The position numbers and the translations under genes are program-made. From Streptomyces umbrinus (GTDB lineage Bacteria; Actinomycetota; Actinomycetes; Streptomycetales; Streptomycetaceae), in the NCBI RefSeq assembly GCF_030817415.1, contig NZ_JAUSZI010000002.1, positions 2,294,001 through 2,358,000 of the forward strand: DNA of 64,000 nucleotides, given 5' to 3'. Positions within the stretch are counted from its first letter, which is position 1, and each line of letters starts with the position of its first letter. This document shows, one piece after another, positions 8,290 to 57,152 of the stretch. The notes under the pieces were generated by a model. The model made no database searches, was not told where the DNA came from, and saw only the letters and a list, made by a program, of their open reading frames with translations.

Positions 8290-8379
8290 CCGTCCCCGGT
8301 GCGGCCCGGCCGATCCCGCCCGTCGCCACCACAAATCCGCTCGCCCGCCCGGTCGCTGAGCCGTTACCGTGCCCGCGTG

Positions 8380-8871
8380 ATGACCGCCGCTGACGTACTG
8401 TCCGTTCTCGCCCTGTTGCGTGCCGCGGATGTCGAGGTCTGGGTGGGCGGCGGGTGGGGCATCGACATTCTGGTCGGGGAGCAGACGCGTCGGCACCGCG
8501 ACCTGGACCTGATGCACCGGGAGGACCAGGAGCAGGCCGTCGTGGCGGCTCTCGCGGAGGCCGGGTTCGTCGAGACGCTCGACTGGCGTCCCGTGCGGTT
8601 CGTGGTCACGGACCCGCGCGGTCGCGAGATCGATCTGCACCCGTTGGTCTTCGCGGCGGACGGGTCCGCGGTGCAGGCGTCCCCCGACCCGCGCCGCCCG
8701 TTCGTCTATCCCGCCCCGTGCTTCGTCAGCGGCGCGATCCGGGGAACCGCCGTCCCTTGTCTCTCGGCCGAGCAGCAGGTCTACTTCCATCAGGGGTACG
8801 AACCGGCCGACCACGACCTCCATGACATGGCTCAGCTCCGACGGGTCTTCGGCGTCACCACCCACTTCTGA
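8380..8871 (+). CDS. Small nucleotidyltransferase (ANT(2'')/Lnu-like)
   Basis: A 163-residue minimal nucleotidyltransferase. WVGGGWGIDILVG followed by RRHRDLDLMHR carries the GG...W and paired acidic residues of the polymerase-beta-like superfamily; REIDLHPLVF gives the third acidic site. Size and motif order match aminoglycoside 2''-adenylyltransferases and lincosamide nucleotidyltransferases, as well as many uncharacterised genomic relatives, so resistance is only a possibility. ATG 8380 is preferred over GTG 8377. It ends convergently with the alpha-glucosidase gene; a 17-base sequence starting TTCTGACCGG is repeated at 8867 and 8893 between them. Confidence 0.75.
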   Translation: MTAADVLSVLALLRAADVEVWVGGGWGIDILVGEQTRRHRDLDLMHREDQEQAVVAALAEAGFVETLDWRPVRFVVTDPRGREIDLHPLVFAADGSAVQASPDPRRPFVYPAPCFVSGAIRGTAVPCLSAEQQVYFHQGYEPADHDLHDMAQLRRVFGVTTHF

Positions 8872-8954
8872 CCGGGCGTCACAGGGCGTCCTTCTGACCG
8901 GGCGTCACTGGACGTCGGGAAAGCCCTGCATGGCGCCGGCCACCTTCCGGTGCC

Positions 8955-10571
8955 TCATGTGCGCAGCCACACCGCCGTGTCGGAGGGCAGCCTTCCGTCG
9001 GTGTCCAGTGGACCGCTGGCGAGCAGGATCTCCGTGTGGTCCGGCAGGGCGGCCGGGGTGTCGGCCAGGTTCGCGACGCAGATCAGGTCCGGGGAGCGGC
9101 GGAAGGTGAGTACGCCGTCGCAGGAGGGCAGCCATTGCAGCGGGCCGTCGCCCAGGGCCGGGTCGGCGCGGCGCAGGCCCAGTGCGGCGCGGTAGAGGTT
9201 GAGCATGGAGTCGGGGTCGTCGGCCTGGCGGTCGGCCGCGTAGGCGGGCCAGCCGTCGGGCTGTGGCAGCCAGGGTGCTGTGCGTGAGCCGAAACCGGCG
9301 TACGGAGCGTCGGCCGTCCACGGCAGCGGGACACGGCAGCCGTCGCGGCCCGGGTCGGTGCCGCCGGAGCGGAAGTGCATCGGGTCCTGGATGCGGTCCC
9401 GGGGGATCTCCGCTTCGGGCAGGCCCAGTTCCTCGCCCTGGTAGAGGTATACGGAGCCGGGCAGAGCGAGGGTGAGCAGGGCGGCGGCACGCGCCCGGCG
9501 GGTGCCGAGCCGCAGGTCTGCCGGGGTACCGAAGGCCTTGGTGGCGAAGTCGAAACCGGTGTCCTGCCGCCCGTATCGGGTGACCGTGCGGGTCACGTCG
9601 TGATTGCACAGCACCCAGGTGGCCGGCGCACCGACCGGGGCGTGTTCGGCGAGGGTGTCGTCGATGGCGGCGCGCAGCCGGGCCGCCTCCCACGGGCACG
9701 ACAGGAAGGAGAAGTTGAACGCGGTGTGCAGTTCGTCGGGGCGCAGGTAGCGGGCGAACCGTTCGGAGTCCGGCAGCCACACCTCGCCGACGAAGACGCC
9801 GTCGTACTCGTCGGCGATCCGCCGCCAGGAGCGGTAGATCTCGTGCAGGTCGTCCCGGTCGATGTACGGGTGGGGGTCACGCCCCTCCACGAAGTCGGGC
9901 AGGTCGGGGTCCTTGGCGGGCAGCGCCGCGGAGTCGATACGTACGCCCGCCACCCCGCGCTCGAACCAGAACCGCAGCACCTCTTCGTGCTCCTCCCGCA
10001 CCGCGGGATGGGCCCAGTTGAGATCCGGCTGCTCCGGCGTGAACAGGTGCAGGTACCACTCGCCGTCCTCGACCCTGGTCCAGGTGCGGCCGGAGAACTG
10101 TGACGGCCAGTCGTTGGGCGGGAGTTCGCCGTGTTCGCCGCGGCCGGGACGGAAGTGGAAGAGCTTGCGTTCGGGACTGCCCGGTCCGGCGGCGAGCGCG
10201 GCCCGGAACCAGGGGTGCTGGTCGGAGACGTGGTTGGGCACGATGTCGACGATGGTGCGGATGCCCAGCCCGCGGGCCTCGGTGATCAGTCGCTCGGCCT
10301 CGCCGAGGTCGCCGAAGGCGGGGTCGATGGTGCGGTAGTCGGCGACGTCGTAACCCCCGTCGGCGAGCGGGGACAGGTACCAGGGGGTGAACCAGATCGC
10401 GTCGACGCCCAGTTCGGCGAGGTAGGGCAATCTCGACCGTACGCCCGCGAGGTCCCCGGTGCCGTCGCCGTCGCCGTCGGCGAAGCTGCGCGGGTACACC
10501 TGGTAGATGGCGGCACCGCGCCACCAGTCGTCGGTGTGGCCGGGGGTCTTACCGGGCTGAGGGGCTGCCAC
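8955..10571 (-). CDS. GH13 alpha-glucosidase (oligo-1,6-glucosidase group)
   Basis: A 538-residue cytoplasmic glycoside hydrolase family 13 enzyme with no signal peptide. Region I is DIVPNH (109-114), region II GVRID with the nucleophile near Asp213, region III GEVWL with the acid/base near Glu263, and region IV NHD (about 323-325). The start WWRGAAIYQVYPRSFADGDG is typical of exo-acting alpha-glucosidases that remove glucose from short alpha-glucosides. It is the last gene of the importer operon (170 bp after the second permease), so its natural substrate is probably whatever that importer brings in: nigero- or other alpha-gluco-oligosaccharides if the neighbouring secreted enzymes are alpha-1,3-glucanases. 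Linkage specificity is inference. Confidence 0.9.
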   Translation of the reverse strand: MAAPQPGKTPGHTDDWWRGAAIYQVYPRSFADGDGDGTGDLAGVRSRLPYLAELGVDAIWFTPWYLSPLADGGYDVADYRTIDPAFGDLGEAERLITEARGLGIRTIVDIVPNHVSDQHPWFRAALAAGPGSPERKLFHFRPGRGEHGELPPNDWPSQFSGRTWTRVEDGEWYLHLFTPEQPDLNWAHPAVREEHEEVLRFWFERGVAGVRIDSAALPAKDPDLPDFVEGRDPHPYIDRDDLHEIYRSWRRIADEYDGVFVGEVWLPDSERFARYLRPDELHTAFNFSFLSCPWEAARLRAAIDDTLAEHAPVGAPATWVLCNHDVTRTVTRYGRQDTGFDFATKAFGTPADLRLGTRRARAAALLTLALPGSVYLYQGEELGLPEAEIPRDRIQDPMHFRSGGTDPGRDGCRVPLPWTADAPYAGFGSRTAPWLPQPDGWPAYAADRQADDPDSMLNLYRAALGLRRADPALGDGPLQWLPSCDGVLTFRRSPDLICVANLADTPAALPDHTEILLASGPLDTDGRLPSDTAVWLRT

Positions 10572-10740
10572 GTGTCGGTCCTTTCGGGGCAGGGGTGGTT
10601 CTCCGCCACCGTCCCGGACAGCGAGGCGTCGGGAACGGGGCGGCGGCGGAGGATCGGTGGGGGCACCTGCGTGGTGTTCGCTGCGGGTGGTGCCCGGACT
10701 GCGGGTGACCGCGGGTGGTGCCCGTACGGCGTGTGCTCGG

Positions 10741-11616
10741 TCAGCCCTTGAGGCCGCCCGCCGTCAGTCCGCTCATGATGTTGCGCTGGAAGACGAGGAA
10801 CAGGATCAGCGTGGGCAGGGACGCGATGGTCAGGGAGGCGATCAGCACGTTCTCGGGCACGCTGGTGGCGAGCGAGTAGATACCGACGGCGAGTGTCTGC
10901 TTCGACGGATCCGGCAGGACGAGCATCGGCCAGAGGAAGTCCTTCCAGACGCCGACGACGGCGAAGATGGACACCACACCGAGGATGGGCCGGGAGACCG
11001 GCAGGACGATGGACCACAGGACGCGCAGGGGGCCGGCGCCGTCCATCGACGCCGCGTCGAGCAGTTCCTTGGGTATCGAGTCGAAGAACCGCTTGAGCAG
11101 GAAGATGTTGAAGGCGTTGGTGACCGACGGAAGCCAGATCGCCCAGGGCGAGTTGAGCAGGTTGCGTTCGACGATCGGCACGTCCAGCGCGGTGAGGTAC
11201 TGCGGTACGACGAGGACGGTCGCCGGGATCATGAGAGTGGCGAGCATCAGGCCCAGGATCATCTTGCCGAGTACGGGCCGCAGTTTGGACAGCGAGTAGG
11301 CCGCGGCGACGTCGAGCACCAGCTGGAAGGCGAGCGCGCCGAAGGCGTAGTAGAGGGTGTTCATCAGGAGTTTCGCCAGGTCCATGACCTCCCAGGCACG
11401 TTGGTAGTTCTCCGGGTGGACGGAGCCCGGCACCCAGGTGGGCGGGGTCTGGACGGCTTCCTGGGTGGTCTTGAGCCCGTTGGACACCATCCAGTACAGC
11501 GGGCCGAGGAAGGCCAACGTGAACAGGACGACGACGAGCGCGAAGCACACCCAGTACAGGGCCTTCCCACGAGGGCGGGCCAGTTGGGCGGGTGAGATGA
11601 GCGTGCGAGTGGACAT
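10741..11616 (-). CDS. Carbohydrate ABC transporter permease (MalG/CUT1 type)
   Basis: A 291-residue inner-membrane permease with six predicted helices and the CUT1 EAA loop (DAASMDGAGPLRVLWSIVLP), which docks the ATPase. It pairs with the permease immediately upstream, 20 bp away. No ATPase gene is present in the cluster; in Streptomyces sugar importers of this type commonly share MsiK. Ends with GLTAGGLKG, the usual MalG-type tail. Confidence 0.93.
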   Translation of the reverse strand: MSTRTLISPAQLARPRGKALYWVCFALVVVLFTLAFLGPLYWMVSNGLKTTQEAVQTPPTWVPGSVHPENYQRAWEVMDLAKLLMNTLYYAFGALAFQLVLDVAAAYSLSKLRPVLGKMILGLMLATLMIPATVLVVPQYLTALDVPIVERNLLNSPWAIWLPSVTNAFNIFLLKRFFDSIPKELLDAASMDGAGPLRVLWSIVLPVSRPILGVVSIFAVVGVWKDFLWPMLVLPDPSKQTLAVGIYSLATSVPENVLIASLTIASLPTLILFLVFQRNIMSGLTAGGLKG

Positions 11617-11636
11617 GTCCGTGTCTCCCCCGGGTC

Positions 11637-12599
11637 CTAGTCCTGCTCGGCGCGGTTGAGCCTGGTGTACACGGCCGAGAAACCGGCCAGGAGTACGAGC
11701 AGGAGCAGGCCGAGTGCCGCCGCGGCGCCGTAGTTGTTGAAGTTGAAGGCGTACTGGTAGATCAGGTACACAACGGTGGTGGTGGACCCCTCGGGCCCGG
11801 CGCCGCCGGTGAGCAGGAACGGCTCGATGAAGACCTGCATGGTGGCGATGATCTGCATGAGGAGCATCAGCAGCAGGATGAGCCGGGTCTGCGGGACGGT
11901 GACGTGCCAGACCTTGCGGAGCAGTCCCGCGCCGTCGAGTTCGGCGGCCTCGTACAGTTCACCGGGCACGCCCTGGAGGGCCGCGAGGTAGATCAGTGTC
12001 GCGCCGCCCATGTTCATCCAGGTCGAGGCGACCACCACGGAGAGCATCGCGGTGTCGGGGTCCTGGAGCCATTGCTGGGCGGGGACGCCGAAGACTCCGA
12101 GCATCTCGTTGAACATGCCGTACCCGGGGTCGTACAGGTACTTGAAGAGCAGGACCGACGCGGTCGGCGGGAGCATCACCGGCAGGTAGACCAGCAGCCT
12201 CAAGTAGCCCTGGCCGTGCCGGAATTCATTGATGATCAGGGCGGTGACGAACGGTACGACGAAGCCGAGGATCAGCGCCAGCACGGTGAACCACAGGGTG
12301 TTGCGCCAGGCCTGGCCGAAGGCCGGGTCGTTCCAGACGGTGACGAAGTTGTCCCAGCCCACCCAGCTGACGTTGCCGTCCTCGGTCTTCTGGAAGGCGA
12401 GGAGGAACTCCCTGACGATCGGGTACCAGGAGAAGAAGGCGAAGCAGAGCACCGCGCCGATGAGGAAGCCGTGGGCGGTGATGTTGCGGCGCAGGTTCTT
12501 GCCGAACTCGCCGTCCGGGAGGTGCGGGGCACCGGCGCGGGGCCTGCGGGGGCGGCGGTCCTTGACCACCGGGTCCTTGGTGAGGATGGGGGCCGACAT
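11637..12599 (-). CDS. Carbohydrate ABC transporter permease (MalF/CUT1 type)
   Basis: A 320-residue permease starting MSAPILTKDPVV, with AAGGAG six bases upstream of ATG 12599. It has six helices and the EAA loop EAAELDGAGLLRKVWHVTVP. Together with the next permease it forms the transmembrane channel of a CUT1 sugar importer. It is separated from the binding-protein gene by about 145 bp containing a strong hairpin. Confidence 0.93.
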   Translation of the reverse strand: MSAPILTKDPVVKDRRPRRPRAGAPHLPDGEFGKNLRRNITAHGFLIGAVLCFAFFSWYPIVREFLLAFQKTEDGNVSWVGWDNFVTVWNDPAFGQAWRNTLWFTVLALILGFVVPFVTALIINEFRHGQGYLRLLVYLPVMLPPTASVLLFKYLYDPGYGMFNEMLGVFGVPAQQWLQDPDTAMLSVVVASTWMNMGGATLIYLAALQGVPGELYEAAELDGAGLLRKVWHVTVPQTRLILLLMLLMQIIATMQVFIEPFLLTGGAGPEGSTTTVVYLIYQYAFNFNNYGAAAALGLLLLVLLAGFSAVYTRLNRAEQD

Positions 12600-12707
12600 G
12601 ATCGCTCCTTGACGTACTGCGGTGCCGCCGGACGGATCGGGTCCGGGCACATGCCGTGGGAGGTCGGGCGCTCGCCCGCGCCGCCGGTGAACGGCGGCGC
12701 GCGGGCG

Positions 12708-12735
12708 GGCCGGACGGTGGTGACACCGCCCGGCC
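12708..12735 (-). terminator. Intercistronic hairpin after the binding-protein gene
   Basis: GGCCGG-A-CGGTG (12708-12719) pairs with CACCG-C-CCGGCC (12724-12735) around a GTGA loop, with one mismatch. It sits ten bases past the binding-protein stop and before the permease genes. Partial terminators or stabilising hairpins at this place typically make the binding protein more abundant than the permeases. Confidence 0.6.
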
Positions 12736-12744
12736 GCCGCGTGG

Positions 12745-14166
12745 TCACTGGGTGGCGAGGACCTTGTTGACCTGGGACTCGGCGGTGGACAGGAGCTTGC
12801 CGATGTCGGCGTCCTTGTTGGTGAGGATGCCCGACATGACGTTGTCGAGGACCTTGTAGATCTCCTGGGCCTTGGGCGGTTCGGCCTTGCCCGGGACCGG
12901 GTTGTCGGTGAATGCCTTGAAGTTCTCCACCGGCATGGTGGCGAACTCCTTGCGGGCGGCGTCGTCCTTGGTCTTGGAGCCGTTCAGCCACAGGTTCGGC
13001 TGCGGGAGCCCCACGGGCAGGGCGTCGGCCTTGGACCGCTTCCAGTCGTACTGACCCTTGCCGACCGTGGTGAACTTGAAGTTCAGCCAGGCGATGGAGG
13101 CCTTGACCTTGTCGGCGGAAATCCCCTGCTTGATCATGTAGTTGTTGCCGCCGGCGAGGGTGTTCTCACCACCCGGGATGGGTCCCATGCCGAAGTTCTC
13201 GTACTTGGCGCCGAGTTGCTGGACCATGTACGTGACGTCGTCGGGCGCGGCGAGGAACATGCCCAGCTTGTCGGTGGCGATCTGCTTCTGCAGGTCGCCC
13301 CACTTCAGCAGCTGGGTCTTGCCCATGGAGTCGTCGTCCCAGCGCATGGCGTGGAGGTTCTCGGCGACCTGCTTGCCGGTCGCGTCGTTGAAGGCGGCCT
13401 TCTTGCCGCTCGCGTCGACGACGTCGCCCCCGAGGCTGTACATCTGCGCGGTGAAGTGCCAGCCGCCGGTGTTGGCCGCGCTGTACTCGCCGAATCCGGC
13501 GACACCGCCGCCGAGGTCCGCGATCTTCTTGGCCGCGGTGCGGACTTCCTCCCAGGTCTCCGGTGGGGTGTCCGGGTCGAGGCCGGCCTCGGTGAAGAGC
13601 TTGCGGTTGATGAGCAGGCCCATGCGGTAGTTGCTGGTGGGCAGGCCGTAGAGCTTCCCGTCCTTCTTCAGCGAGCTGAGGACGTCGGGGTCGATGTCCT
13701 TGAGCAGCGGGACGCTCTTGTCGTTGACGTACGCGGTGATGTCCTGGGCGCCGTCGTTGTCGAGGACCTGGGGCAGGTCGGTGAAGTACGTGTAGAAGAC
13801 GTCGGGTTGGGACTTCGCCTTGAGCATCGCGGTGAAGCGCGGCGGTTCCAGACACTGGCCCGGCGTGGAGCGGCCCTTGATGCTGACGTTCGGGTACTTC
13901 TTGTTGAACTCCTTGACGTCCTCGTTCCACTGCCTGAGCTCGGCCGCCTTCGCCGCGGGGGGCATGCAGTCGATGGTGATGGACACCTTGGTCTTCGGGT
14001 CCAGCGGTGCGGCGGGGTCGGCTTTCGCACTGTTGCCGGAGCCGTTGTCGCCGTCGTCGTCGCTGCTGCTGCTCGTACCGCAGGCGGCGAGTGCGGTCAG
14101 CGTGAGCGCGGAGGCGAGGGTGACCGCGCCGGCGCGGCGGGTGCGGCGGAACCGAGCTCTTCTCAT
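12745..14166 (-). CDS. Extracellular solute-binding lipoprotein of sugar ABC importer
   Basis: A 473-residue CUT1 solute-binding protein. The N-terminus is a lipoprotein signal: RRARFRRTRRAG, a hydrophobic stretch and lipobox LAAC with Cys29, then a Ser/Asp-rich tether. The mature part has the usual type-1 binding-protein pattern (VSITIDCMPPAAKAAELRQW, YGLPTSNYRMGLLINRKLFT, GMGPIPGG, GGNNYMIKQGI). It captures oligosaccharides at the membrane surface for the two permeases downstream. ATG 14166 is chosen as the start of the signal peptide, with a purine-rich GAAGGGGA upstream. It is the first gene of the importer operon; a TTGCGCGCAA palindrome lies about 160 bp upstream. Confidence 0.92.
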   Translation of the reverse strand: MRRARFRRTRRAGAVTLASALTLTALAACGTSSSSDDDGDNGSGNSAKADPAAPLDPKTKVSITIDCMPPAAKAAELRQWNEDVKEFNKKYPNVSIKGRSTPGQCLEPPRFTAMLKAKSQPDVFYTYFTDLPQVLDNDGAQDITAYVNDKSVPLLKDIDPDVLSSLKKDGKLYGLPTSNYRMGLLINRKLFTEAGLDPDTPPETWEEVRTAAKKIADLGGGVAGFGEYSAANTGGWHFTAQMYSLGGDVVDASGKKAAFNDATGKQVAENLHAMRWDDDSMGKTQLLKWGDLQKQIATDKLGMFLAAPDDVTYMVQQLGAKYENFGMGPIPGGENTLAGGNNYMIKQGISADKVKASIAWLNFKFTTVGKGQYDWKRSKADALPVGLPQPNLWLNGSKTKDDAARKEFATMPVENFKAFTDNPVPGKAEPPKAQEIYKVLDNVMSGILTNKDADIGKLLSTAESQVNKVLATQ

Positions 14167-14326
14167 GGGTGGTCCCCTTCGGGCATGAACGTGGAAGGCG
14201 CCCTCATCGCCGGTGCGATGTGGGGCGCCGCACACTCAACCACCACGAACAACTGACCGCAATATCTCGCGCAGCCTTCGTAAATGTTTGACAGAAGGAC
14301 GTATACGGTTGATCTCAAGGGGACGG

Positions 14327-14336
14327 TTGCGCGCAA
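14327..14336. promoter_or_regulatory. TTGCGCGCAA operator-like palindrome upstream of importer operon
   Basis: A perfect 10-bp palindrome related to the CTTGCG/CGCAAG motifs at 15403-15438 and 20039-20065. It lies in the gap between the LacI gene and the binding-protein gene, directly before the LacI terminator hairpin. Confidence 0.5.
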
Positions 14337-14337
14337 G

Positions 14338-14379
14338 CCGAAGCGCGGTGAGGCCGGGTCCGGCCTCACCGCGCTTCGG
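14338..14379 (-). terminator. Perfect 20-bp terminator hairpin after the LacI gene
   Basis: The 20-base arm 14338-14357 is exactly complementary to 14360-14379, with two bases between the arms. It begins ten bases beyond the LacI stop (14389, minus strand) and separates LacI transcription from the importer operon. Confidence 0.85.
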
Positions 14380-14388
14380 TCGTACGGA

Positions 14389-15399
14389 CTAGCCCCGAGG
14401 AGCCTGTGTCGTCGAGCCGCGGACCACCAGCTCCGGCTCGAACAGGAGCTCACCTGGCTGGACTTCACCACCCTGGATCTGGGTGCAGAGCAGGTCCACG
14501 GCGGCCCGCCCCATGGCCTCGATGGGCTGGCGCACGGTGGTCAGCGGGGGTTCGGTGCAGTTCATGAAGGCGGAGTCGTCGAAGCCGACGACGGAGACCT
14601 GCTCGGGTACCGCTAGGCCGCGCCGGCGGGCCGCGCGGATGGCGCCGAGGGCGAGCGGGTCGCTGGCGCAGATGATGCCGGTGACACCCCGGGCCAGCAG
14701 GCGGGTGGTCGCCGCCTGGCCGCCCTCCAGGGAGAACATCGACCGCTCCACGCACTCGTCGGGCAGGGACTTGCCGGCCGCCTCGGCGCCGGCCCGCGCG
14801 GCGGCCAGCTTGCGCCGGGAGGGGATGTGGTCGGCCGGGCCGAGGACCACGCCGATGCGCTCGTGCCCCAGCAGGGTGAGGTGCCGCCACGCCTGTTCGA
14901 CCGCGACGGCGTCGTCGCAGGAGACACAGGGGAAGTCCAGCTCCTCGACCGGGGCGTTGATCAGCACGACCGGGATGCGCCGTTCGGCGAGCTGCCGGTA
15001 GTGGTCGTGCGGGGCGTCGGCCTGGGCGAACAGGCCGCCGGCGAAGACCACTCCGGACACGTGCTGCTGGAGCAGCAGGTCGACGTAGTCCGCCTCGGAG
15101 ACTCCGCCCTTGGTCTGGGTGCACAGCACCGGGGTGAGTCCCTGCTGGGCGAGCGCACCGCCGATGACCTCGGCGAGCAGGGGGAAGATCGGGTTCTGCA
15201 GCTCGGGCAGGACCAGGCCGACCAGACGCGCCCGCTCGCCGCGCAGCTGGGTGGGACGCTCGTAGCCGAGGACGTCCAGCGCGGTGAGCACGGACTGCCT
15301 GGTGGTGTCCGAGACTCCGGGCTTGCCGTTGAGGACTCGGCTGACCGTGGCCTCGCTGACACCTACCTTCTTGGCTACCTGAGCAAGTCGTCGCGTCAT
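14389..15399 (-). CDS. LacI-family transcriptional regulator
   Basis: A 336-residue LacI/GalR repressor. The DNA-binding head MTRRLAQVAKKVGVSEATVS-RVLNGKPGVS contains the helix-turn-helix plus the hinge, followed by a sugar-binding core (LVGLVLPELQNPIFPLLAEV, RIPVVLINAPVEELDFP, DPLALGAIRAARRRGLAVPE, VSVVGFDDSAFMN, TTVRQPIEAMGRAAVDLL). It sits between the large secreted enzyme and the importer operon on the same strand. Its own upstream region has three direct CGCAAG-type motifs and a 10-bp-arm palindrome, so autoregulation is likely. By analogy with MalR/AglR of Streptomyces it should repress the locus until an oligosaccharide binds; the effector is inference. Confidence 0.93.
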   Translation of the reverse strand: MTRRLAQVAKKVGVSEATVSRVLNGKPGVSDTTRQSVLTALDVLGYERPTQLRGERARLVGLVLPELQNPIFPLLAEVIGGALAQQGLTPVLCTQTKGGVSEADYVDLLLQQHVSGVVFAGGLFAQADAPHDHYRQLAERRIPVVLINAPVEELDFPCVSCDDAVAVEQAWRHLTLLGHERIGVVLGPADHIPSRRKLAAARAGAEAAGKSLPDECVERSMFSLEGGQAATTRLLARGVTGIICASDPLALGAIRAARRRGLAVPEQVSVVGFDDSAFMNCTEPPLTTVRQPIEAMGRAAVDLLCTQIQGGEVQPGELLFEPELVVRGSTTQAPRG

Positions 15400-15402
15400 G
15401 AG

Positions 15403-15438
15403 CGCAAGGCTAGCGCAAGCCGCGCAAACGGCTTGCGC
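15403..15438. promoter_or_regulatory. CGCAAG/CTTGCG operator cluster upstream of the LacI gene
   Basis: CGCAAG occurs at 15403 and 15414, CGCAAA at 15423 and CTTGCG at 15432. GCGCAAGCCG (15413-15422) and CGGCTTGCGC (15429-15438) form a perfect 10-bp inverted repeat around a 6-bp centre. It starts four bases before the LacI ATG (15399) and would block its expression. Confidence 0.65.
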
Positions 15439-15499
15439 CAGCCTTTGTGCCTCCGTTCAGTCTCCGTGAGGGACCGGTGGACGCCTTTCGGCGAACAGG

Positions 15500-18400
15500 T
15501 CAGGGGTTGATGCTGATCCTGAAGGTGGAGGTGGTGTTGCGGACGTCCACGGCGTTGCCGTTGAAGCGCAGGCCGTTGAAGGTGACCTCACCGACCGCCG
15601 GGCCCTGACCCGGTTCCGGCAGCTCGTTGGCCCACAGTCCGAACCCGGACTTCGCGTCGTAGGCGTCCCCGCTCTTGCGGGCGCCCGTCACCGAGATGTC
15701 GGTGAGGATCGTGTCCTTGATCGGGTTGATCGGCCGCCCGCCGGCGTCGTACTGGGTCTGGAACATGATCCCGCTGTAGGTCGGGTCCACGATGTCCACG
15801 TCGTTGACGCGGATGCCCTGGAACACCTTCGAGGCGGAGAACAGCCAGATTCCGGGGAAGGTCTGACTGCCCCAGAAATGGCCGCCTGAGCGGACCACCG
15901 AGACGTTCTCCACGGTCGTCGGCCCGGTGCCGAACCCGTTCATCGGATAGCCGAAGTCCAGCGAGCTGATCGTGATGCCCGAGTAGACCAGGGTGTCGGC
16001 GATGTGGATGTTGCGGAAGGTGTTGTCGTAGCCGCCGTAGACGGCGATGCCCGCGGCCCGCCAGGTGAGGATCGAGGTCAGGTTCTCGTAGAGGTTGTCC
16101 TTCATGTCGGCGCCGCCCGCGTCGATCGCGGAGAACAGCGCGAAGCTGTCGTCGCCGGAAGCCCGGGACTCGTTGTTGACCACGTGGTTGTCCGTCGAGC
16201 CGTTGGTCATGTTGACGGCGTCGGCGAACGTGTCGCGGATGCGCGAGTTGCTGATCGTCACCCGGTCCGTGTTGGCGCCCCAGTAGAGGCAGACCATGTG
16301 TTCGGTCCAGGTGTTGTCGATGACGATGTCCGACACGTTCGCGAAGTCGAACACCTTGCCGGGACCGTCGATGCGCGAGGTGTAGTTGCCGAAGTAGGCG
16401 AAGTTCCTGAAGGAGGACCCCTTCGCGGAGTTCTCGGCCCGGAAGCCGACGTCGGTGTTGTCCTGGCCCGACGGGGCGTGGAACCGCGTGTACCAGGGCC
16501 CGGCGCCGACCACCTGCACGGCCTTGCCGTACACCTGGAACTTGCCGGCCGTCTGGTATTCGCCCGGTGGGAGGTAGACGCCGGTGAGCCTGCCGGTGGT
16601 GTCCATGCGGACCCGGTCCAGGGCGTTCTGTACGTCCTGGTGGCCGAGGCCGGTCGGGACGGCGTACGCGGCCGGGTCCGGGTTGGCGACCGGCGCGACC
16701 TGTTCCAGGCTGACGAAGTCGATCGCGTACCGGGAGGTGTTGGCCGTGTCCTTCTGCAACCGGATCTTCGCACCCTCCGGAACGGTCTCGCCCAGCATCA
16801 GGTGCGCCTCGTCGTAGATGTGGCGCGGGGCTCCCGCGGACGGGGAGTTGCCCGGACCTGCCTCCGCCCCGTACAGCCAGGCGTACTTCGAGGTGAGCGG
16901 CAGCACCTTGCGGAAGGTGCCGTTGACGTAGACGTTGAGGGTGGCGTCGATGCCGCCGCCGCCAGCGGAGTCCGGGATGGAGAACCGGGTGACCAGTGTG
17001 TTGGTGGCCGCCTTGGTGGTGAACTCGACGTACTCACCGGTGCTGTTGAGGGTCACCGCCTTGCGGCCCGACGCCTCGCCCGCGAGGTCGCCGACGGTCC
17101 GGTTGGGCCCGACGGTCGCCGCTCCGCCGCCGGTTGCTCCGTCCTCCGCCTCGTACATGTCGTAGGGCATGTTCGCGCCGCGTCCGACGAACAGGGACTG
17201 GGTGGCGCTGTTGTTCTCCCGTTTGACCGGCAGTTCGTTGGCGTCGGCGGCGACGGTCGTACGTACCGTGTACGAGCCGTTGGCGGCGGTCCAGGTGCCC
17301 ACCGTGACGGCGCCGGTGGTGGCACCGGCCGCGATCGTGCCGTCGTACGAGCCGGTCAGGGTCCGAACGGTGGCGCCCTTGGAGTCGACCAGCGTGACGG
17401 TGATGCCGTGCGCGGCGCCCGCCGAGCCGATGGTGCCCTGGTTGCGCAGGGCGACCTTGAAGGTGACGGTGTCGCCGTCCGCCGGGCCGGACGGTGAGGT
17501 GGTCAGTACCGGCACGAGGTCGGAGCTGCTGACCGGGCGTACGACGAGTGAACCGGGGCTGGTGTAGGTGTTGTTGGTCTCGTTCTGCTCGATGACCGCA
17601 CCGGCGTCGTCGGCGACGGCACTGAGCTGGTAGGTGCCCGCGTCGCGTGCCCCGATGGAGGCGGTGACGGTGTGCTGCGCTCCGGCCGCGAGGGTGCCGA
17701 CGGCGGCCGTGGCGACCTTGGTGCCGCCCAGGCGCAGTGCGACGGCGCTGGCCGGCGCGGCGACCTCGCCGCTGTTGCGAACGGTGGCGGTGAGGGTGAT
17801 CTCGTCGGACTCGACCGGTGAGGCCGGCGAGGCGGTCAGCGCGGTGACCTCGAGATCCGGGTTGGGTGCGGCGGTACCGATCACCTGGAACTCGGCGATC
17901 TGCCCGGCCGGGGCGCCCGTGTTGGAGGTGAAGCGCAACTGCACGTCGGCCACCCGCGCGGTGACGGGCACGGTCACGCTGTTGCCGCTCGACGGGCTGA
18001 AGGCGTAGTCCTTCGCGGCGACCAGGCCGGAATAGCCGGTGGCGTCCTGCTCGCGGCCGAGGACCTGGATGTTCTGGGTCCGGGCGCCCCAGGCGCTGTC
18101 CGGGTTCAGCTTGAGGACGAGCGAGGAGACGTCGGCGTTGGCTCCGAGCTTCACGGTGAGGGTGGCGGGGTGGCCGGAGCCCTCCCAGTAGGTGGAGGTG
18201 CTGTTGTCGTTGGCGTTCTCGGCGACGAAGGTGTGCACGGTCGAGGATGCCGTGATCGGCCTGCCGACCGCGAGGTTGGAGCCGGGGCCCGAACTGCCGT
18301 TGCGCGTCACGGTGTTGCTGTCGCCGGACACGTTCCCGGCGGCGTCCTTGGCCCGCACGAAGTAGGAGACCGTGGCACTCGCGGAGCGGTTGTCGGTGTA

Positions 18401-19786
18401 CGCGGTGACCGTACCGGCGACCGTGGTGAGCAGGCTGTTGTTGGCGTACACGTCGTAGCCGGTCACGCTGGTGTTGTCGCTGGAGGCGTTCCAGGCGAGC
18501 CGGATCTGCCCGGCGGCCGGTTCGGTGAGGGCCAGGTTCGCGGGTGCCGTGGGTGCCTGGGTGTCACCGCTCTCGCCGCGGCGGGTGACGGTGTTGCTGT
18601 CGCCGGACACGTTCCCGGCGGCGTCCCTGGCCCGCACGAAGTAGGAGACCGTGGCACTCGCGGGACGGTTGTCTGTGTACGCGGTGACCGTGCCCGCGAC
18701 ACTGGTGAGCAGCTCGTTGTTGGCGTACACGTCGTAGCCGGTGACACCGGTGTTGTCGTCGGACGCCTTCCAGGTCAGCCGGATCTGGCCGGTGGCGGGC
18801 TCGGTGTGGGCGAGGTCCGCGGGGGCGCTCGGCGCCTCGGTGTCGCCGCTCGCCGGGCCGTAGACCTCGAGTTCGGACAACTGGGCAGCGGGCTGACCGG
18901 TGTTGGCGGTGACCAGCACCCGCACGTACCGGGTGGTCGTCGGGTCGAAGGAGATCGTCACCGAGTTGCCGTCGCCCGGCGTGAAGGCGCAGGCCTTGGA
19001 GGCGGTCAGGTCGGAGAAGTCGGTGCCGTTGGCGCTGCCCTGGATCTTCAGGGTCTGACTGCGGGCTCCCCAGCCGTCGGGCAGGCGCAGCACCACCCGG
19101 TCGACGCGCAGGGAGGAGCCCAGGTCCGCCTGGATCCACTGCGGCAGGTCGTTGTTGCGGCTCTCCCAGTAGGTGGCCTTGTTGCCGTCGGCCGCGTTGG
19201 CCGGCACATAGGTCTCGTGGTGACTGGCGGCGGTGAGCGTGCGGCCGCGCGCCAGGTTCGCCGAGGAGTCACCGGACTCGCGGACCTCCAGCTCGGAGAG
19301 CTGCGCGGCCTGCCACCCGGTGTTGGCGGTGATGTGGATCCGTACGTACCGGGCCTGGGCGGCGGGGAAGGTCACCGTCACGGTGTTGGCGCTGCCGGGG
19401 CTGAAGGCGTAGGACGCGGAGGTCTTCAGGGTGGTGAAGCTCGTGCCGTCCGCGCTGCCCTGGACGGACAGGGTCTGATTGCGGCTCTCCCAGCCCGCCG
19501 GCAGCCTCAGCACCACCTCGTCCACGCGGGCGGTGGCACCCAGGTCCGTCTGGATCCACCGGGGGAGGCTGCTCCCGGCGCTCTGCCAGTACGTTCCCTG
19601 GTCGCCGTCGGTGATGTTGCCCGCGGCGTACTCGGCGTGGGCGCTGCCGGCGGTGGCGGGCCGTCCGGCGGCGAGGTTGGGCCCGGCGGCCGCCGCGGCG
19701 GCGGTCAGCGACGGCAGGCCCAGCAGGAGCAGAGCGGTCGTGAGGACGGCGGCAATCCCCCGCCATCCCCGGCGTTGCGGTCTCAT
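15500..19786 (-). CDS. Secreted multimodular beta-helix glycanase, probable GH87 alpha-1,3-glucanase
   Basis: A 1,428-residue secreted enzyme. A signal peptide (about 1-34) is followed by two discoidin (F5/8C) domains (about 36-170 and 178-310), two nearly identical fibronectin type III repeats (about 318-500), a third discoidin domain (about 505-640), two CARDB adhesion-type domains (645-860), a CBM35-like domain (MYEAEDGATGGGAATVG onward) and a C-terminal right-handed beta-helix. In the helix, DTFADAVN (Asp1189) and SGDDSFA (Asp1212-Asp1213) resemble the catalytic Asp cluster of GH87 mycodextranase/alpha-1,3-glucanase; WRAAGIAVYGGY is shared with the divergent neighbour. GH87 enzymes often carry discoidin and CBM domains that bind insoluble alpha-glucan. 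Other beta-helix families (pectinase-like) remain possible. Transcribed divergently from its paralogue, with CGCAAG motifs between. Confidence 0.72.
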   Translation of the reverse strand: MRPQRRGWRGIAAVLTTALLLLGLPSLTAAAAAAGPNLAAGRPATAGSAHAEYAAGNITDGDQGTYWQSAGSSLPRWIQTDLGATARVDEVVLRLPAGWESRNQTLSVQGSADGTSFTTLKTSASYAFSPGSANTVTVTFPAAQARYVRIHITANTGWQAAQLSELEVRESGDSSANLARGRTLTAASHHETYVPANAADGNKATYWESRNNDLPQWIQADLGSSLRVDRVVLRLPDGWGARSQTLKIQGSANGTDFSDLTASKACAFTPGDGNSVTISFDPTTTRYVRVLVTANTGQPAAQLSELEVYGPASGDTEAPSAPADLAHTEPATGQIRLTWKASDDNTGVTGYDVYANNELLTSVAGTVTAYTDNRPASATVSYFVRARDAAGNVSGDSNTVTRRGESGDTQAPTAPANLALTEPAAGQIRLAWNASSDNTSVTGYDVYANNSLLTTVAGTVTAYTDNRSASATVSYFVRAKDAAGNVSGDSNTVTRNGSSGPGSNLAVGRPITASSTVHTFVAENANDNSTSTYWEGSGHPATLTVKLGANADVSSLVLKLNPDSAWGARTQNIQVLGREQDATGYSGLVAAKDYAFSPSSGNSVTVPVTARVADVQLRFTSNTGAPAGQIAEFQVIGTAAPNPDLEVTALTASPASPVESDEITLTATVRNSGEVAAPASAVALRLGGTKVATAAVGTLAAGAQHTVTASIGARDAGTYQLSAVADDAGAVIEQNETNNTYTSPGSLVVRPVSSSDLVPVLTTSPSGPADGDTVTFKVALRNQGTIGSAGAAHGITVTLVDSKGATVRTLTGSYDGTIAAGATTGAVTVGTWTAANGSYTVRTTVAADANELPVKRENNSATQSLFVGRGANMPYDMYEAEDGATGGGAATVGPNRTVGDLAGEASGRKAVTLNSTGEYVEFTTKAATNTLVTRFSIPDSAGGGGIDATLNVYVNGTFRKVLPLTSKYAWLYGAEAGPGNSPSAGAPRHIYDEAHLMLGETVPEGAKIRLQKDTANTSRYAIDFVSLEQVAPVANPDPAAYAVPTGLGHQDVQNALDRVRMDTTGRLTGVYLPPGEYQTAGKFQVYGKAVQVVGAGPWYTRFHAPSGQDNTDVGFRAENSAKGSSFRNFAYFGNYTSRIDGPGKVFDFANVSDIVIDNTWTEHMVCLYWGANTDRVTISNSRIRDTFADAVNMTNGSTDNHVVNNESRASGDDSFALFSAIDAGGADMKDNLYENLTSILTWRAAGIAVYGGYDNTFRNIHIADTLVYSGITISSLDFGYPMNGFGTGPTTVENVSVVRSGGHFWGSQTFPGIWLFSASKVFQGIRVNDVDIVDPTYSGIMFQTQYDAGGRPINPIKDTILTDISVTGARKSGDAYDAKSGFGLWANELPEPGQGPAVGEVTFNGLRFNGNAVDVRNTTSTFRISINP
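18300..18850. repeat. Tandem 279-bp duplication encoding two Fn3 domains
   Basis: Two adjacent units with a period of 279 bp (93 codons) encode almost the same fibronectin III module, including GYDVYANN, AGTVTAYTDNR and GNVSGDSNTVTR in both. The near identity at DNA level shows a recent duplication or ongoing gene conversion. Confidence 0.85.
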
Positions 19787-20038
19787 GTGTCCCCGATCTC
19801 CGTCCCGAACCGGATGTGGGCGGCCCCGGGGCGGCTGTGTGGGTGGGTGTCCGTGGGGGTGGTGCGTCGCGCCTCAATGTGCAGTGGTGAACACTCCCTT
19901 TTGCGTCGATCGATCAGAGAGTTGCAGACGCTCGACGGTACGTCTATGGCGTGAGCATGCCCGAAATACACGCCTCCCGAGCCCTTTCGACCTGCTGCAC
20001 CACCGGGCCAGCGACTTTCGCGCGGGCTGTCGGAAAAG

Positions 20039-20127
20039 CGCAAGCGAGCACGCAAGTCACGCAAGCCGCTTCCACGTCAACTACCGGTAATACCGGGACC
20101 GTTGACAAAGCGGAGACGGGCTAGAAA
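20039..20127. promoter_or_regulatory. Divergent control region: triple CGCAAG, CCGGTA palindrome and -35-like box
   Basis: The 510-bp gap between the two large enzymes holds CGCAAG direct repeats at 20039, 20051 and 20060, the 13-bp palindrome CCGGTAATACCGG (20084-20096), and TTGACA (20102) with TAGAAA (20122) 14 bases later, a short spacing. On the minus strand TTGACG (20073-20078) abuts the CTTGCG repeats, so a repressor there would cover a promoter. No gene was seen in the gap. Confidence 0.55.
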
Positions 20128-20296
20128 CCTGTGGGCGTAGTTTCCGCAAAGAATCGACTGAGCAGCTCAATTTGCGCGCAAGGCCGGTGCATTCCTCAAC
20201 GGACACTCCACTCCCCCTCTGAACTCCCCCGTGCCTGCCCCGGCGTGCCCGGCCCGTCTGTCGCGCTTCCGCCTCCCCCACGGAACAGAGGACCCC

Positions 20297-23200
20297 ATGA
20301 GATGGAGACCCCTCGGCCGCCGGTCACTGACCGGCGCCGTCATAGCCGCGCTCATGACGACCGGGCTGATACCGCTGGCCGTCACGTCGAGCGCCCGGGC
20401 CGCCACCGCCCCGGTGGACAGCGACCGCGCGAAGGCGGCGGCCGTCGTCAACCTCGCGCTCGGACGTCCGGCCACCGCGGGCGGCTCGAACGGCCCCTAC
20501 ACCGCCGGGAACGTCACCGACGGCACCCAGGCCTCCTACTGGGAGGGGCCGGCCGGCTCCTTCCCGCAGTGGGTCCAGGTCGACCTCGGTGCGACCCGGA
20601 CCGTCGACGAGGTGGTGCTCAAACTGCCCGCCGCCTGGGAGAGCCGTAACCAGACGCTGTCCCTGCAGGCCAGCACCGACGGCTCCACCTTCCGTACGCT
20701 CGAGGCCTCCACCGGCCGGGCGTTCAACCCCGCGCAGGCCAACACCGTCCCGGTCGGCCTCGCCTCCCCCGCCGAGGCGCGCTACGTCCGCGTGCACATC
20801 ACCGGGAACACCGGCTGGAACGCCGCTCAGCTCTCCGAGCTGGAGGTGTACGGCGACGACGGCGGCACCACTCCCCCGCCGACCGGCACCAACCTGGCCC
20901 GCAACAAGCCCGTCGAGGCCACCTCCTCGGTGCACAACTTCGTCGCCGCGAACGCCACCGACGACTCCACGTCCACCTACTGGGAGGCGGCGGGGCCATC
21001 CCTCCGACCTCACCGTCAAGCTCGGGGCCGACGCCGACGTCGACGCCGTGGTGGTCAAGCTCAACCCGGACCAGGTGTGGGCGGCCAGGACCCAGAGCAT
21101 CCAGGTGCTGGGCCGTGAGCACTCCGCGAGCGGCTTCACCTCGCTGCGCGACCGCGCCGACTACGCCTTCAGTCCCTCCCGGGACAACAACTCGGTGACC
21201 ATCCCGGTCACCGGCCGCTGGTCCGACCTCCGGCTCCGATTCTTCTCCAACACCGGGGCACCGGGCGGCCAGGTCGCCGAGTTCCAGGTCGTCGGGACCG
21301 CCGCACCCGCACCCGACCTGACCGTCACCGGCCTGGTCTGGACACCTGCCGCCCCCTCCGAGCGGGACGCGGTGACCGTGAACGCCACGGTCCGCAACGC
21401 GGGCACGGCACGCTCGGCCGCCACGACCGCAGACGTCAGCCTGGAGGGAACGGTCGCCGGCAGCGGAACCGTACCCGCGCTCGACCCGGGCGCCTCCGCC
21501 ACGGTGGCCGTCGCCGCGGGCACCCGTCCGGCCGGCAACTACGGCGTCTCCGCCGTGGTCGACCCGCGCAACACGGTCGCCGAACTCGACGACTCCAACA
21601 ACAGCCGCACCGCCGCGAACCGGCTGGTCGTCGGCCAGGCACCCGGCCCCGACCTCGAAGTACGCGGCATCACCACCAACCCGGCCAACCCGGCCGTCGG
21701 TTCGTCCGTCTCCTTCACCGTCGCCGTGCACAACCGCGGCACCACCGCGGCGCCGGCCGGCTCCGTGACCAGGCTCCAGGTCGGCTCCACCACGCTCAAC
21801 GGCACGACCGGCCAGATCGCATCCGGCGCCACGGCGAACGTGGCGATCAGCGGAACGTGGACGGCGACCAGCGGCGGAGCCACCCTCACGGCCACCGCCG
21901 ACGCCACCGGGATCGTCGACGAGACCAACGAGAACAACAACGTGCTCGCCAGGTCCCTCGTCGTCGGCCGTGGCGCCGCCGTCCCGTACACCGAACTGGA
22001 GGCGGAGGACGGCCGCTACGAGGGCACCCTGCTCACCGCCGACGCCAAGCGGACCTTCGGACACACCAACTTCGCCACCGAGTCCTCGGGCCGCAAGTCG
22101 GTCAGGCTCAACTCCACCGGCCAGTTCGTCGAGTTCACCTCGACGGCTCCCTCCAACTCGATCGTGGTGCGCAACTCCATCCCGGACGCCTCGGGCGGCG
22201 GCGGCGCACAGGCCACGATCAGCCTGTACGCCAACGGCACCTTCGTACAGAAGCTCAACCTGTCGTCGAAGCACAGCTGGCTGTACGGGACCACCGACGA
22301 CCCCGAGGGTCTGACCAACACGCCGGGCAGCGACGCCCGTCGGCTGTTCGACGAGTCGCACGCGCTGCTGTCGCAGAGCTACCCGGTGGGCACCAAGTTC
22401 CGCCTCCAGCGGGACGCGGGCGACACGGCCGCGTTCTACGTCATCGACCTCGTCGACCTCGAACAGGTCGCGCCCGCGGCCGCCAAGCCGGCCAACTGCA
22501 CCTCGATCACAGAGTACGGGGCCGTCCCGGGCGACGGGCTCGACGACACCGACGCCATCCAGCGGGCGGTCACCGCCGACCAGAACGGCCAGATCTCCTG
22601 CGTGTGGATCCCGGCCGGGCAGTGGCGCCAGGAACAGAAGATCCTCACCGACGACCCGCTGAACCGGGGCCAGTACAACCAGGTCGGCATCCGGGACGTC
22701 ACCATCCGCGGCGCGGGCATGTGGCACTCCCAGCTCTACACGCTCACCCCGCCCCACCAGGCCGGCGGCATCAACCACCCGCACGAGGGCAACTTCGGCT
22801 TCGACATCGACCACAACACCCAGATCTCCGACATCGCCATCTTCGGCTCGGGCACCATCCGCGGCGGCGACGGCAACCACGAGGGCGGCGTGGGACTCAA
22901 CGGCCGCTTCGGCAAGGGCACGAAGATCACCAACGTGTGGATCGAGCACGCCAACGTCGGCGTGTGGGCCGGCCGCGACTACTCCAACATTCCCGAACTG
23001 TGGGGCCCCGGCGACGAGTTGGAGTTCTCGGGAGTACGCATCCGCAACACCTACGCCGACGGCATCAACTTCGCCAACGGCACCCGCAACTCCACCGTCT
23101 ACAACTCGTCCTTCCGCAACACCGGCGACGACGCGCTCGCCGTGTGGGCCAGCAAGTACGTGAAGGACACCTCGGTGGACGTCGGCCACGACAACCACTT

Positions 23201-23747
23201 CCGCAACAACACGATCCAGCTGCCGTGGCGGGCCAACGGCATCGCGGTGTACGGCGGTTACGGCAACACCATCGAGAACAACGTCATCGCCGACACGATG
23301 AACTACCCCGGCATCATGCTCGCCACCGACCACGACCCGCTCCCGTTCTCCGGGCAGACCCTCATCGCGGGCAACGCCCTGCACCGGACGGGCGGCGCGT
23401 TCTGGAACGAGGACCAGGAGTTCGGCGCCATCACCCTCTTCGCCCAGGGCCAGGACATCCCTGGCGTGACCATCCGTGACACCGAGATCTTCGACTCGAC
23501 GTACGACGGCATCCAGTTCAAGACGGGTGGCGGCGCGATGCCGGCCGTGAAGATCACCGACGTCAAGATTGACGGGTCCAACAACGGGTCCGGCATCCTC
23601 GCGATGAGCGGGGCCCGCGGCAGCGCCACCCTGACGAACGTCACGATCACGAACTCGGCCGAAGGGAGCGTACTGATCGAGCCGGGCTCGCAGTTCACCA
23701 TCACCGGCACGCCCAACGGGGCGTCCGCCGCCCGTATGAACCGCTGA
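20297..23747 (+). pseudogene. Frameshifted secreted multimodular beta-helix glycanase (GH87-like)
   Basis: A paralogue of the divergent enzyme, of about 1,150 residues if read through one frameshift. ATG 20297 (AGAGGA before it) starts a signal peptide (LTGAVIAALMTTGLIPLAV), then discoidin domain 1 (about 45-175) and most of discoidin domain 2. At the G-run 20992-20995 the frame is lost: YWEAAG is followed by out-of-frame sequence, while the +1 frame continues HPSDLTVKLGADADV exactly as the paralogue's HPATLTVKLGANADV. One extra G explains it. Downstream come two CARDB domains, a CBM35-like domain (ELEAEDGRYEG) and a beta-helix with NTYADGINFANG and NTGDDALAVW, the same Asp cluster as the neighbour. 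This may be a true mutation, a sequencing error in a homopolymer, or slippage. Confidence 0.75.
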
Positions 23748-23751
23748 GTCA

Positions 23752-23788
23752 GGGGTCTCCGGCCACCGGCGACGGGCGCCGGAGCCCC
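23752..23788 (+). terminator. Hairpin terminator after the GH87-like gene
   Basis: GGGG-T-CTCCGGC (23752-23763) pairs with GCCGGAGCCCC (23778-23788) with one bulged base, four bases past the stop at 23747. The remaining stretch to 24157 (about 370 bases) shows no convincing gene or motif. Confidence 0.65.
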
Positions 23789-24157
23789 GTCGGCACACCT
23801 GTCCCGACCATCGACCCAGGACGCCGGTGCCTCGCACTCCCCTCGGAGGGCGGGGCACCGGCCGCACTCCCCAAGGACTCCGAGACCGGAAGCGCGCAGG
23901 CTCCCTTCCTCCGACATCGTGCCCCGGGGACTGCGGGCCTGACGCCGGGCCTCCCCGTGGAACAGATTCTCGATGAGGCGACCGACACGGTGGCCCTGCT
24001 GTCCGGGCTGCTGTTGCCCTGACCTCGGGCGCCGTGTGTTCGCCTTCTCGTACCCGGACACCGCTCAGGTTCTGGCATGGTCGACGAGCGGGGACCCAGC
24101 GAGTGATCTGCGGGAGCCGCGGGAGCATCAACGCCCCTGCCGGGCCGAGGAGGACGA

Positions 24158-24971: not shown

Positions 24972-25628
24972 TCAGAGGTCGTCCACGTCGACCAGCCCGT
25001 CCTGGATGGCGCGGGCGACCAGGCTTGCCTTGGTCCGCGCGGGCCGGCCGACGTTCGCGTACTTGATGCGCACCCGGTCCAGATACGAGTTGACCGTTCG
25101 TACGGAGATCCCGAGACGCTGCGCCACCAACTCCTTCGACTCCGACTGGAACCACTCGATGAGCACGTTCTCCTCGCGCACGGAGAGCTGGGGACGGTCG
25201 GCGCGGGTGTTCGTTCCCAGCGCGCCGGCCAGTGCGGGCGGCATGTAGGGCCGCTCGTCCGCTGCTGCCAGCGTCGCCTCGACCAGGTGGTCCCGGCCCT
25301 CGCTCTTGGTCAGATAGGTCGCGGCTCCCAGGTCCAGGCAGTTGAGCGCTGTCTTCTCGTCGTCCCGCATCGAATAGACGACCACCTGGCGCCCGGCGTC
25401 GACGAGTCTTCGGAGGCTGCCGAAGGCCGGGCCGCCTTCGGCCAGTTGCAGATCCAGGACGACGACGTCGGCCGTGCTGCCCGGCGCGGTCCAGGCTTCC
25501 CGTACGGAGTCGCCGGCCGCGACCACGGTGATGGGCCGCCGTGCTGCGGCGTACCACGCCTCTATGCCCGAGAGGATGGCGGGATGGTCGTCGACGACGA
25601 CCACGCTGACCGGTGCGTTGTCACTCAT
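24972..25628 (-). CDS. NarL/LuxR-type response regulator
   Basis: A 218-residue two-component response regulator. The receiver domain has the acidic pair VDDH (12-15), the phospho-acceptor near Asp59 in VVVLDLQL and the Lys of YLTKSE. The C-terminal LuxR helix-turn-helix (SVREENVLIEWFQSESKELV, AQRLGISVRTVNSYLDRVRI) binds DNA. Its start overlaps the end of the kinase gene (25625-25628), so the pair is translationally coupled. No target is evident. Confidence 0.93.
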   Translation of the reverse strand: MSDNAPVSVVVVDDHPAILSGIEAWYAAARRPITVVAAGDSVREAWTAPGSTADVVVLDLQLAEGGPAFGSLRRLVDAGRQVVVYSMRDDEKTALNCLDLGAATYLTKSEGRDHLVEATLAAADERPYMPPALAGALGTNTRADRPQLSVREENVLIEWFQSESKELVAQRLGISVRTVNSYLDRVRIKYANVGRPARTKASLVARAIQDGLVDVDDL

Positions 25629-57041: not shown

Positions 57042-57152
57042 TACTCCAGTTGCGGTTCTCCATATGCCCTGGTCAGATGGCTCTTTTGGAGTGTAATTGG
57101 CTGACGCCTCGTCAGGGCGGCGGTGGTTCGTGACTCACCCGATCGGGGTGCG
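57042..57152. repeat. Left 111-bp terminal inverted repeat of the IS701 element
   Basis: Inverted partner: 58472-58582, with two mismatches. The left arm contains the last codons and stop of the -1 reading of the transposase (57112-57152). Confidence 0.9.

Follow-up and report, generated by a model that had tools for sequence, protein, structure and literature searches.

Is a group of Streptomyces genes in which two large glycoside hydrolases, predicted to be secreted, lie beside a regulator, a sugar importer and an intracellular alpha-glucosidase devoted to the use of alpha-1,3-glucan? Many fungal walls are shielded by this polymer, which also builds mutan in dental plaque, and to our knowledge little is known of its consumption by soil bacteria. 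The group occupies positions 8955-23747 of the stretch of 64,000 nucleotides analysed here (the window; positions 2,294,001-2,358,000 of contig NZ_JAUSZI010000002.1 of Streptomyces umbrinus), in a genome of 12.4 Mb whose closest named relatives, judged by the binding protein of the importer, are S. phaeochromogenes (98%) and S. fructofermentans (96%). Sequence comparison indicated that the locus is very probably dedicated to the use of alpha-1,3-glucan, be this the alpha-glucan of fungal walls, mutan or alpha-1,3/1,4-linked nigeran. The minus strand carries, in order, a gene of glycoside hydrolase family 87 (GH87A), lacI, the genes of the binding lipoprotein and two permeases, and a family 13 gene (GH13); a second family 87 gene (GH87B) lies on the opposite strand. 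Open reading frame and Pfam scans reproduced the order given in the initial annotation (GH13, permeases, binding protein, LacI, GH87A and a divergent GH87B), whose interpretation is supported and whose observations hold in part, with the corrections given below. Its description of the locus as complete was too strong, as the ATPase of the importer would be encoded elsewhere and GH87B is broken in frame in the assembly.

By their catalytic domains and aspartate cluster, both large enzymes are predicted to be GH87 alpha-1,3-glucanases. In GH87A, whose reading frame is intact, residues 872-1030 matched the Pfam domain CatAgl_D1 (265 bits) and residues 1051-1413 the beta-helix domain CatAgl_D2 (341 bits; cut-off 27); the best match in the PDB was 6k0m (415 bits), and at three positions that are Asp in 6k0m and Ala in 6k0p, 6k0q and 6k0s, which we take to be catalytic mutants of the same enzyme, Agl-FH1, GH87A has Asp. 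We assume that 6k0m is Agl-FH1 and 5zru is Agl-KA, names that come partly from passages of PMC10696023 and PMC13421300. Three catalytic Asp residues are described for GH87 in PMC10696023 (this paper, PMC13421300, PMC9061262, PMC7676653, PMC11475409 and PMC11046441 are cited from excerpts). The N-terminus of GH87A resembles a signal peptide when read by eye, and the Pfam scan found three discoidin (F5/8 type C) stretches, a fibronectin III-like repeat and two CARDB stretches. The motifs FADAVN and GDDS noted earlier were found at residues 1187 and 1211, and the discoidin domains claimed for the two enzymes are these three stretches and one in the N-terminal piece of GH87B. The "CBM35-like" module corresponds to CatAgl_D1, part of the GH87 catalytic unit. 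A closer match to pectate lyase, dextranase or some other family would have refuted the initial annotation; instead, each enzyme found its best PDB match in a GH87 alpha-1,3-glucanase.

GH87B likewise carries both catalytic domains (CatAgl_D1, 166 bits; CatAgl_D2, 121 bits, with the same cut-off of 27), matched 5zru (244 bits), 6k0m (206 bits) and 7c7d (202 bits) in the PDB, and has an Asp cluster that aligned with those of 5zru and 6k0m. Its motifs YADGIN and GDDA stand, as annotated, at residues 822 and 846 of an open reading frame listed from 20589; this start is an artefact of the listing, and the gene begins near 20297. The N-terminal piece (20297-20992) has an ATG at 20297, a signal-like start by eye and a discoidin domain (82 bits), and the catalytic piece runs in a different frame from 20994 to 23747. 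The frame shifts between 20992 and 20994, within a second discoidin-like region, and GH87B is not one open frame as assembled. A single open frame of 1178-1384 codons with the catalytic motifs was present in seven of the eight close relatives read; in the eighth (L007), which does not contain the exact search string, GDDA was read in a same-strand frame of 1306 codons. Because the relatives keep one open frame, the break would be either recent or an assembly error.

We compared the loci of the best 80 of 115 relatives of the binding protein. GH87 was present in 70 of the 80 loci (in 60 of the 67 for which 20 kb or more of sequence was covered), and homologs of LacI (at least 70% identity), of the two permeases and of GH13 were found in 65, 76 and 75, and 74 loci, respectively. 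Among 199 genomes of the genus, with an E-value of 1e-100 or better required for the binding protein, GH87 occurred in 115 and the binding-protein family in 110; 109 had both, one had the binding protein without GH87 and six had GH87 without the binding protein. In these genomes a GH87 gene lay within 10 kb of at least 90 of 118 binding-protein genes (at least 34 of the 44 with 72% identity or more, and at least 56 of the 74 with 42-50%), counts that are lower bounds since GH87 places were fully listed for 67 genomes. The chance of a GH87 gene within 10 kb is about 0.005 per place, taking two such genes in 8.5 Mb. In a survey of 296 genomes of the class, counted with the rows of the genus itself left out, GH87 lay within 10 kb of 8 of 10 binding-protein places with at least 40% identity and of 6 of 45 below 40%, and this contrast is the best control against the sheer abundance of such proteins. 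The recurrence of the gene set in relatives and the CatAgl_D2 scores are more than would be expected by chance.

The importer consists of a lipoprotein with a SBP_bac_1 domain and two permeases of the MalF/MalG type, and we take it to belong to class CUT1. The binding protein probably starts at 14166, where an ATG lies 23 codons inside the listed open reading frame, after GAAGGGGA and before a lipobox-like LAAC. No ATPase gene was found among the locus genes scanned; places for OB_MalK-type ATPases lie elsewhere in the genome (C2:5612660 and C2:3775562). In the PDB the best match of the binding protein was 7bvt (73 bits); GacH scored 41 bits and the secreted maltose-binding protein 8art 38 bits. 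At this score the protein is not MalE-like, and within its own genome the next best place reached 57 bits at 29% identity, so that it has no close paralog. On these comparisons the predicted LacI-importer-GH13 operon is distinct from a housekeeping maltose system. The dedicated import proposed in the initial annotation thus gains comparative support from the co-occurrence and proximity described above, the operator-like sites in relatives and the active site of GH13.

GH13 has an Alpha-amylase domain and an Asp/Glu/Asp triad at residues 213, 263 and 325, identified by alignment and known motifs. Its active site bears the signature W64 and D213-S214-A215-A216, and W64, V210, S214 and L217 were identical in 72 of 72 orthologs. 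By contrast, four homologs in the same genome have F, F, V or A, and G or Y at positions 64, 210, 214 and 217, a fifth, fragmentary homolog has Val at 214, and in the region of S214 the sequence is GFRIDVAHG in 8yie and GFRLDTVNF in 3wy1, both solved relatives. A fragmented GH13 homolog at G000:C2:11342-11371 kb (L095) may be a decaying paralog in the same genome. The signature was also followed in 20 remoter regions picked by hand from the binding-protein lists, 19 of which hold a GH13 gene: every one of the 19 has W64, and 18, all but L114 (RIDVAHG), have Asp-Ser. The altered active site (W64, S214) therefore tracks the linkage with GH87. With S214 placed directly after the nucleophile, the linkage preference may plausibly have changed, and from the context of the locus we would guess that the enzyme cleaves alpha-1,3 linkages. 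The genome also encodes full-length GH13 paralogs with 48-57% identity, and one of them (C2:8377391) begins 3.5 kb from another binding-protein place (8373882); because of these, the housekeeping maltose role probably lies elsewhere in the genome.

A LacI regulon over the locus is likely on the evidence of palindromes. The exact pattern CGCAA-N4/5-TTGCG occurred 58 times in the 80 loci (50 with N5, 8 with N4), compared with a total of 4 for 11 other spacers, a spacer control on which the pattern rests because it was chosen post hoc. Of these sites, 34 precede the LacI match by 37-39 bp and 2 by 186 and 244 bp, while 22 lie 2836-2934 bp before the catalytic match of GH87A, that is, ahead of the gene; exact sites between GH87A and GH87B were seen in L008 and L016. 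With one mismatch allowed, sites were found near 42 of 61 lacI, 29 of 59 GH87A, 4 of 30 GH87B and 59 of 76 binding-protein genes. Sequence conservation is strong ahead of the binding-protein gene, where the one-mismatch palindrome overlaps a -35-like TTGCGG, 17 bp from TTGAGT, in a promoter recognised by eye. A single weight matrix of this promoter palindrome found no strong sites before GH87 genes. An exact palindrome, TTGCGCGCAA, before the binding-protein gene and GH87B of the window was dropped as a candidate operator, as it recurred among the 80 relatives in L003 only. In ten loci (L027, L040, L041, L044, L047-L049 and L051-L053) two LacI copies with 84-87% identity flank GH87A, with the palindrome near each copy in most of them. 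The gap between lacI and the binding-protein gene holds a perfect, terminator-like inverted repeat of 20 bases with a 2-base loop (14338-14379). The minus-strand leader of the importer operon begins, close behind the transcription start predicted for it, with a conserved GC-rich hairpin (14170-14225); its alignment fold is weak (-1.86 kcal/mol; 7 pairs, 3 with double changes, from 31 leaders chosen among 62 distinct ones), and we do not claim it as a regulatory RNA.

These findings are consistent with the following scheme. The secreted GH87 enzymes, held by their discoidin domains on the insoluble polymer, would cut it into short alpha-1,3-linked gluco-oligosaccharides; uptake by the lipoprotein and the two permeases would follow, powered by an ATPase encoded elsewhere and presumably shared; and the cytoplasmic GH13 enzyme would split them to glucose. 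LacI would keep lacI, the glucanase gene and the importer genes repressed, and an imported oligosaccharide would act as inducer by releasing it. According to the excerpt of PMC11475409, each of six mutan or alternan isolates grew on mutan, and for the three S. poriferorum strains included in the six mutan served as the only carbon source. A contig of the S. poriferorum type strain (L061) carries GH87A, the importer and GH13.

Several results weigh against this reading. First, ten of the 80 loci have no GH87 in the sequence covered, three of them being pieces shorter than 12 kb, and the genomes surveyed are related, so the association test overstates their independence and its p-value is not to be taken literally. 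Second, the nearest solved relative of GH13, 8yie, is named just an alpha-glucosidase. Third, the window has its exact palindrome only before lacI, its GH87 genes having just two-mismatch forms, and across the loci an exact site was found near 26 of 61 lacI, 22 of 59 GH87A, 3 of 30 GH87B and 1 of 76 binding-protein genes. One-mismatch sites with spacers of 2-3 were also found near 37 of 61 lacI genes, and spacer 3 yields 53 one-mismatch sites in all. The palindrome alone is non-specific, because in the whole genome the exact pattern occurred 18 times and its reversed control 33 times. Fourth, the mutan growers are S. poriferorum strains other than that of L061, so that the agreement is at the species level, and LacI was not found in the piece of L061 examined.

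Among other explanations, the one that survives best is that the substrate is nigeran or another mixed alpha-glucan, that at least one GH87 enzyme is a mycodextranase and that nigerose or the nigeran tetrasaccharide is imported. We consider this possible, if rather unlikely: the GH87 enzymes characterised so far are either mutanases or mycodextranases (PMC13421300), an actinomycete mycodextranase cluster has been named (PMC10696023), and the CatAgl_D2 scores of the two enzymes in the genome search are far apart (344 bits for GH87A and 124 for GH87B), while the solved relatives found for both in the PDB are named alpha-1,3-glucanase. Because its locus logic is identical, it overlaps with use of alpha-1,3-glucan as set out above. 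That the enzymes chiefly attack living fungi, with feeding secondary, is improbable; the GH87 enzyme Agl-EK14 does hydrolyse Aspergillus oryzae wall preparations (PMC10696023), but the repeated linkage of GH87 with genes for uptake, intracellular hydrolysis and regulation (importer, glucosidase, LacI) points to nutrition. The idea that the importer and GH13 form a second maltose or maltodextrin system merely lying beside glucanase genes is very improbable, since its support, an order of lacI, binding protein, two permeases and GH13 as in Streptomyces mal operons, together with the similarity of the GH13 paralogs and the position of one of them, is outweighed by the low scores of the binding protein against 8art and GacH and its lack of a close paralog, by the presence of GH87 in 109 of 110 genomes with the binding-protein family and by a GH13 active site unlike those of the paralogs.

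Comparison of remoter loci bears on how a locus for alpha-1,3-glucan may have been assembled. In L102 and L104-L113, LacI and GH13 are 81-85% and 78-82% identical to those of the window (medians of close loci, 86 and 82), whereas identity drops to 43-46% for the binding protein and to 52-60% for the permeases, and a third type of GH87, with 31-34% identity to GH87B, lies beside this remote importer. In L116, GH87A, GH87B, a piece of LacI and GH13 are of the window type (83-88%), and the importer is of the remote type (binding protein 42%). The importer thus appears to have been swapped, or to be evolving apart from the core of LacI, GH87 and GH13, and a given type of GH87 may go with a given type of importer, except in L103 and L116. 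We tentatively suggest, as a view somewhat short of even likelihood, a LacI-GH87-GH13 core whose GH13 was remade as an alpha-1,3-glucosidase ("nigerosidase", W64 and Asp-Ser), on which two importers about 45% identical are interchangeable; the choice of importer would perhaps depend on which oligosaccharide is set free by the type of GH87 present.

Table 1. Features of the putative alpha-1,3-glucan locus, in window positions.
Feature	Position	Strand	Evidence
GH13 alpha-glucosidase (predicted), without signal-like start	8955..10571	-	Pfam Alpha-amylase 339 bits; PDB 8yie 513 bits
Permease, MalG/UgpE-like	10741..11616	-	Pfam BPD_transp_1; NCBIfam UgpE/MalG matches under cut-off
Permease, MalF/UgpA-like	11637..12650	-	Pfam BPD_transp_1; NCBIfam UgpA/MalF matches under cut-off
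Solute-binding lipoprotein	12745..14166 (listed open reading frame 12745-14235)	-	Pfam SBP_bac_1; GH87-linked family
One-mismatch palindrome CGCGA-GATA-TTGCG (spacer 4), upstream of binding-protein gene	14258..14271		Region aligned in 79 of 80 loci
LacI-family regulator	14389..15399	-	Pfam LacI and Peripla_BP_3
Operator-like palindrome CGCAA-ACGGC-TTGCG, upstream of lacI	15423..15437		Pattern search
GH87A, secreted alpha-1,3-glucanase (predicted)	15500..19786	-	Pfam; PDB match; Asp cluster
Weak two-mismatch operator-like site between GH87A and GH87B	20060..20074		Pattern search
GH87B, second GH87 enzyme (predicted)	20297..23747	+	Pfam CatAgl_D1 and CatAgl_D2; PDB 5zru; discoidin; frames

Around the locus, an open reading frame just past the GH13 gene (8299-8871, plus strand) matched the Pfam family Aminoglycoside-2''-adenylyltransferase (219 bits), and GH87B is adjoined by genes (24972-28006, minus strand) for a response regulator and for a protein that has a histidine-kinase ATPase domain. 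Transposase or integrase genes were found at 38939-40216, 41879-42706, 57135-58460 and 60568-61572, and this region (38939-61572) also holds an RHS-repeat protein. No Rfam match of curated strength was found in 8900-24000; five matches with E-values of 0.07-0.9 all fell under the gathering scores and were put down to chance.

GH87 genes in regulated loci have precedents. The nigerose cluster of Lachnoclostridium phytofermentans similarly has GH87 near nigerose-active enzymes, ATP-binding cassette (ABC) transporter genes and LacI regulators; its intracellular enzymes, however, are a GH65 nigerose phosphorylase and GH31_u1 (PMC9061262), where the Streptomyces locus, from another phylum, has a GH13 with an unusual active site and two GH87 genes. 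In Prevotella melaninogenica, a putative GH87 polysaccharide utilisation locus (PUL) likewise joins a mutanase with its own regulator and uptake proteins, the uptake being of the SusD/TonB type and the other enzymes GH97 and GH71/99-like; in 2026 the authors of that study were aware of no characterised GH87 PUL (PMC13421300). The Arthrobacter globiformis pathway for cyclic maltosyl-maltose resembles our locus in its secreted enzyme, ABC importer and intracellular GH13 enzymes, and 7bvt, the best solved relative of our binding protein, is cited in that paper, but the secreted enzyme is a starch-acting GH13 and not GH87 (PMC7676653). Agl-FH1 and Agl-KA, solved GH87 alpha-1,3-glucanases, share the catalytic unit and Asp cluster and are known as single enzymes, with no transport locus described in the excerpts of PMC10696023 and PMC13421300. 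Streptomyces GH87 enzymes are also known singly, as the 7C7D mutanase and the J-13-3 mycodextranase (PMC11475409); the excerpt of this paper describes no uptake locus, and the word "transporter" does not occur in its text. GH87 is not mentioned in the first 300,000 characters of PMC11046441 and is one entry among families in PMC9120177; a description of this Streptomyces locus was not found in the open-access PMC literature.

What is new here is a conserved actinobacterial locus with an importer family of its own, a candidate operator and an unusual GH13. If the proposed function is true, GH87 would be paired with a transporter family and a regulator, and GH13 would be a candidate enzyme for alpha-1,3 bonds. 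Since GH87 occurs in 115 of the 199 genomes of the genus, nearly always with the binding-protein family of the locus importer, a binding protein of this kind adjoining GH87 would then be a marker that predicts users of alpha-1,3-glucan.

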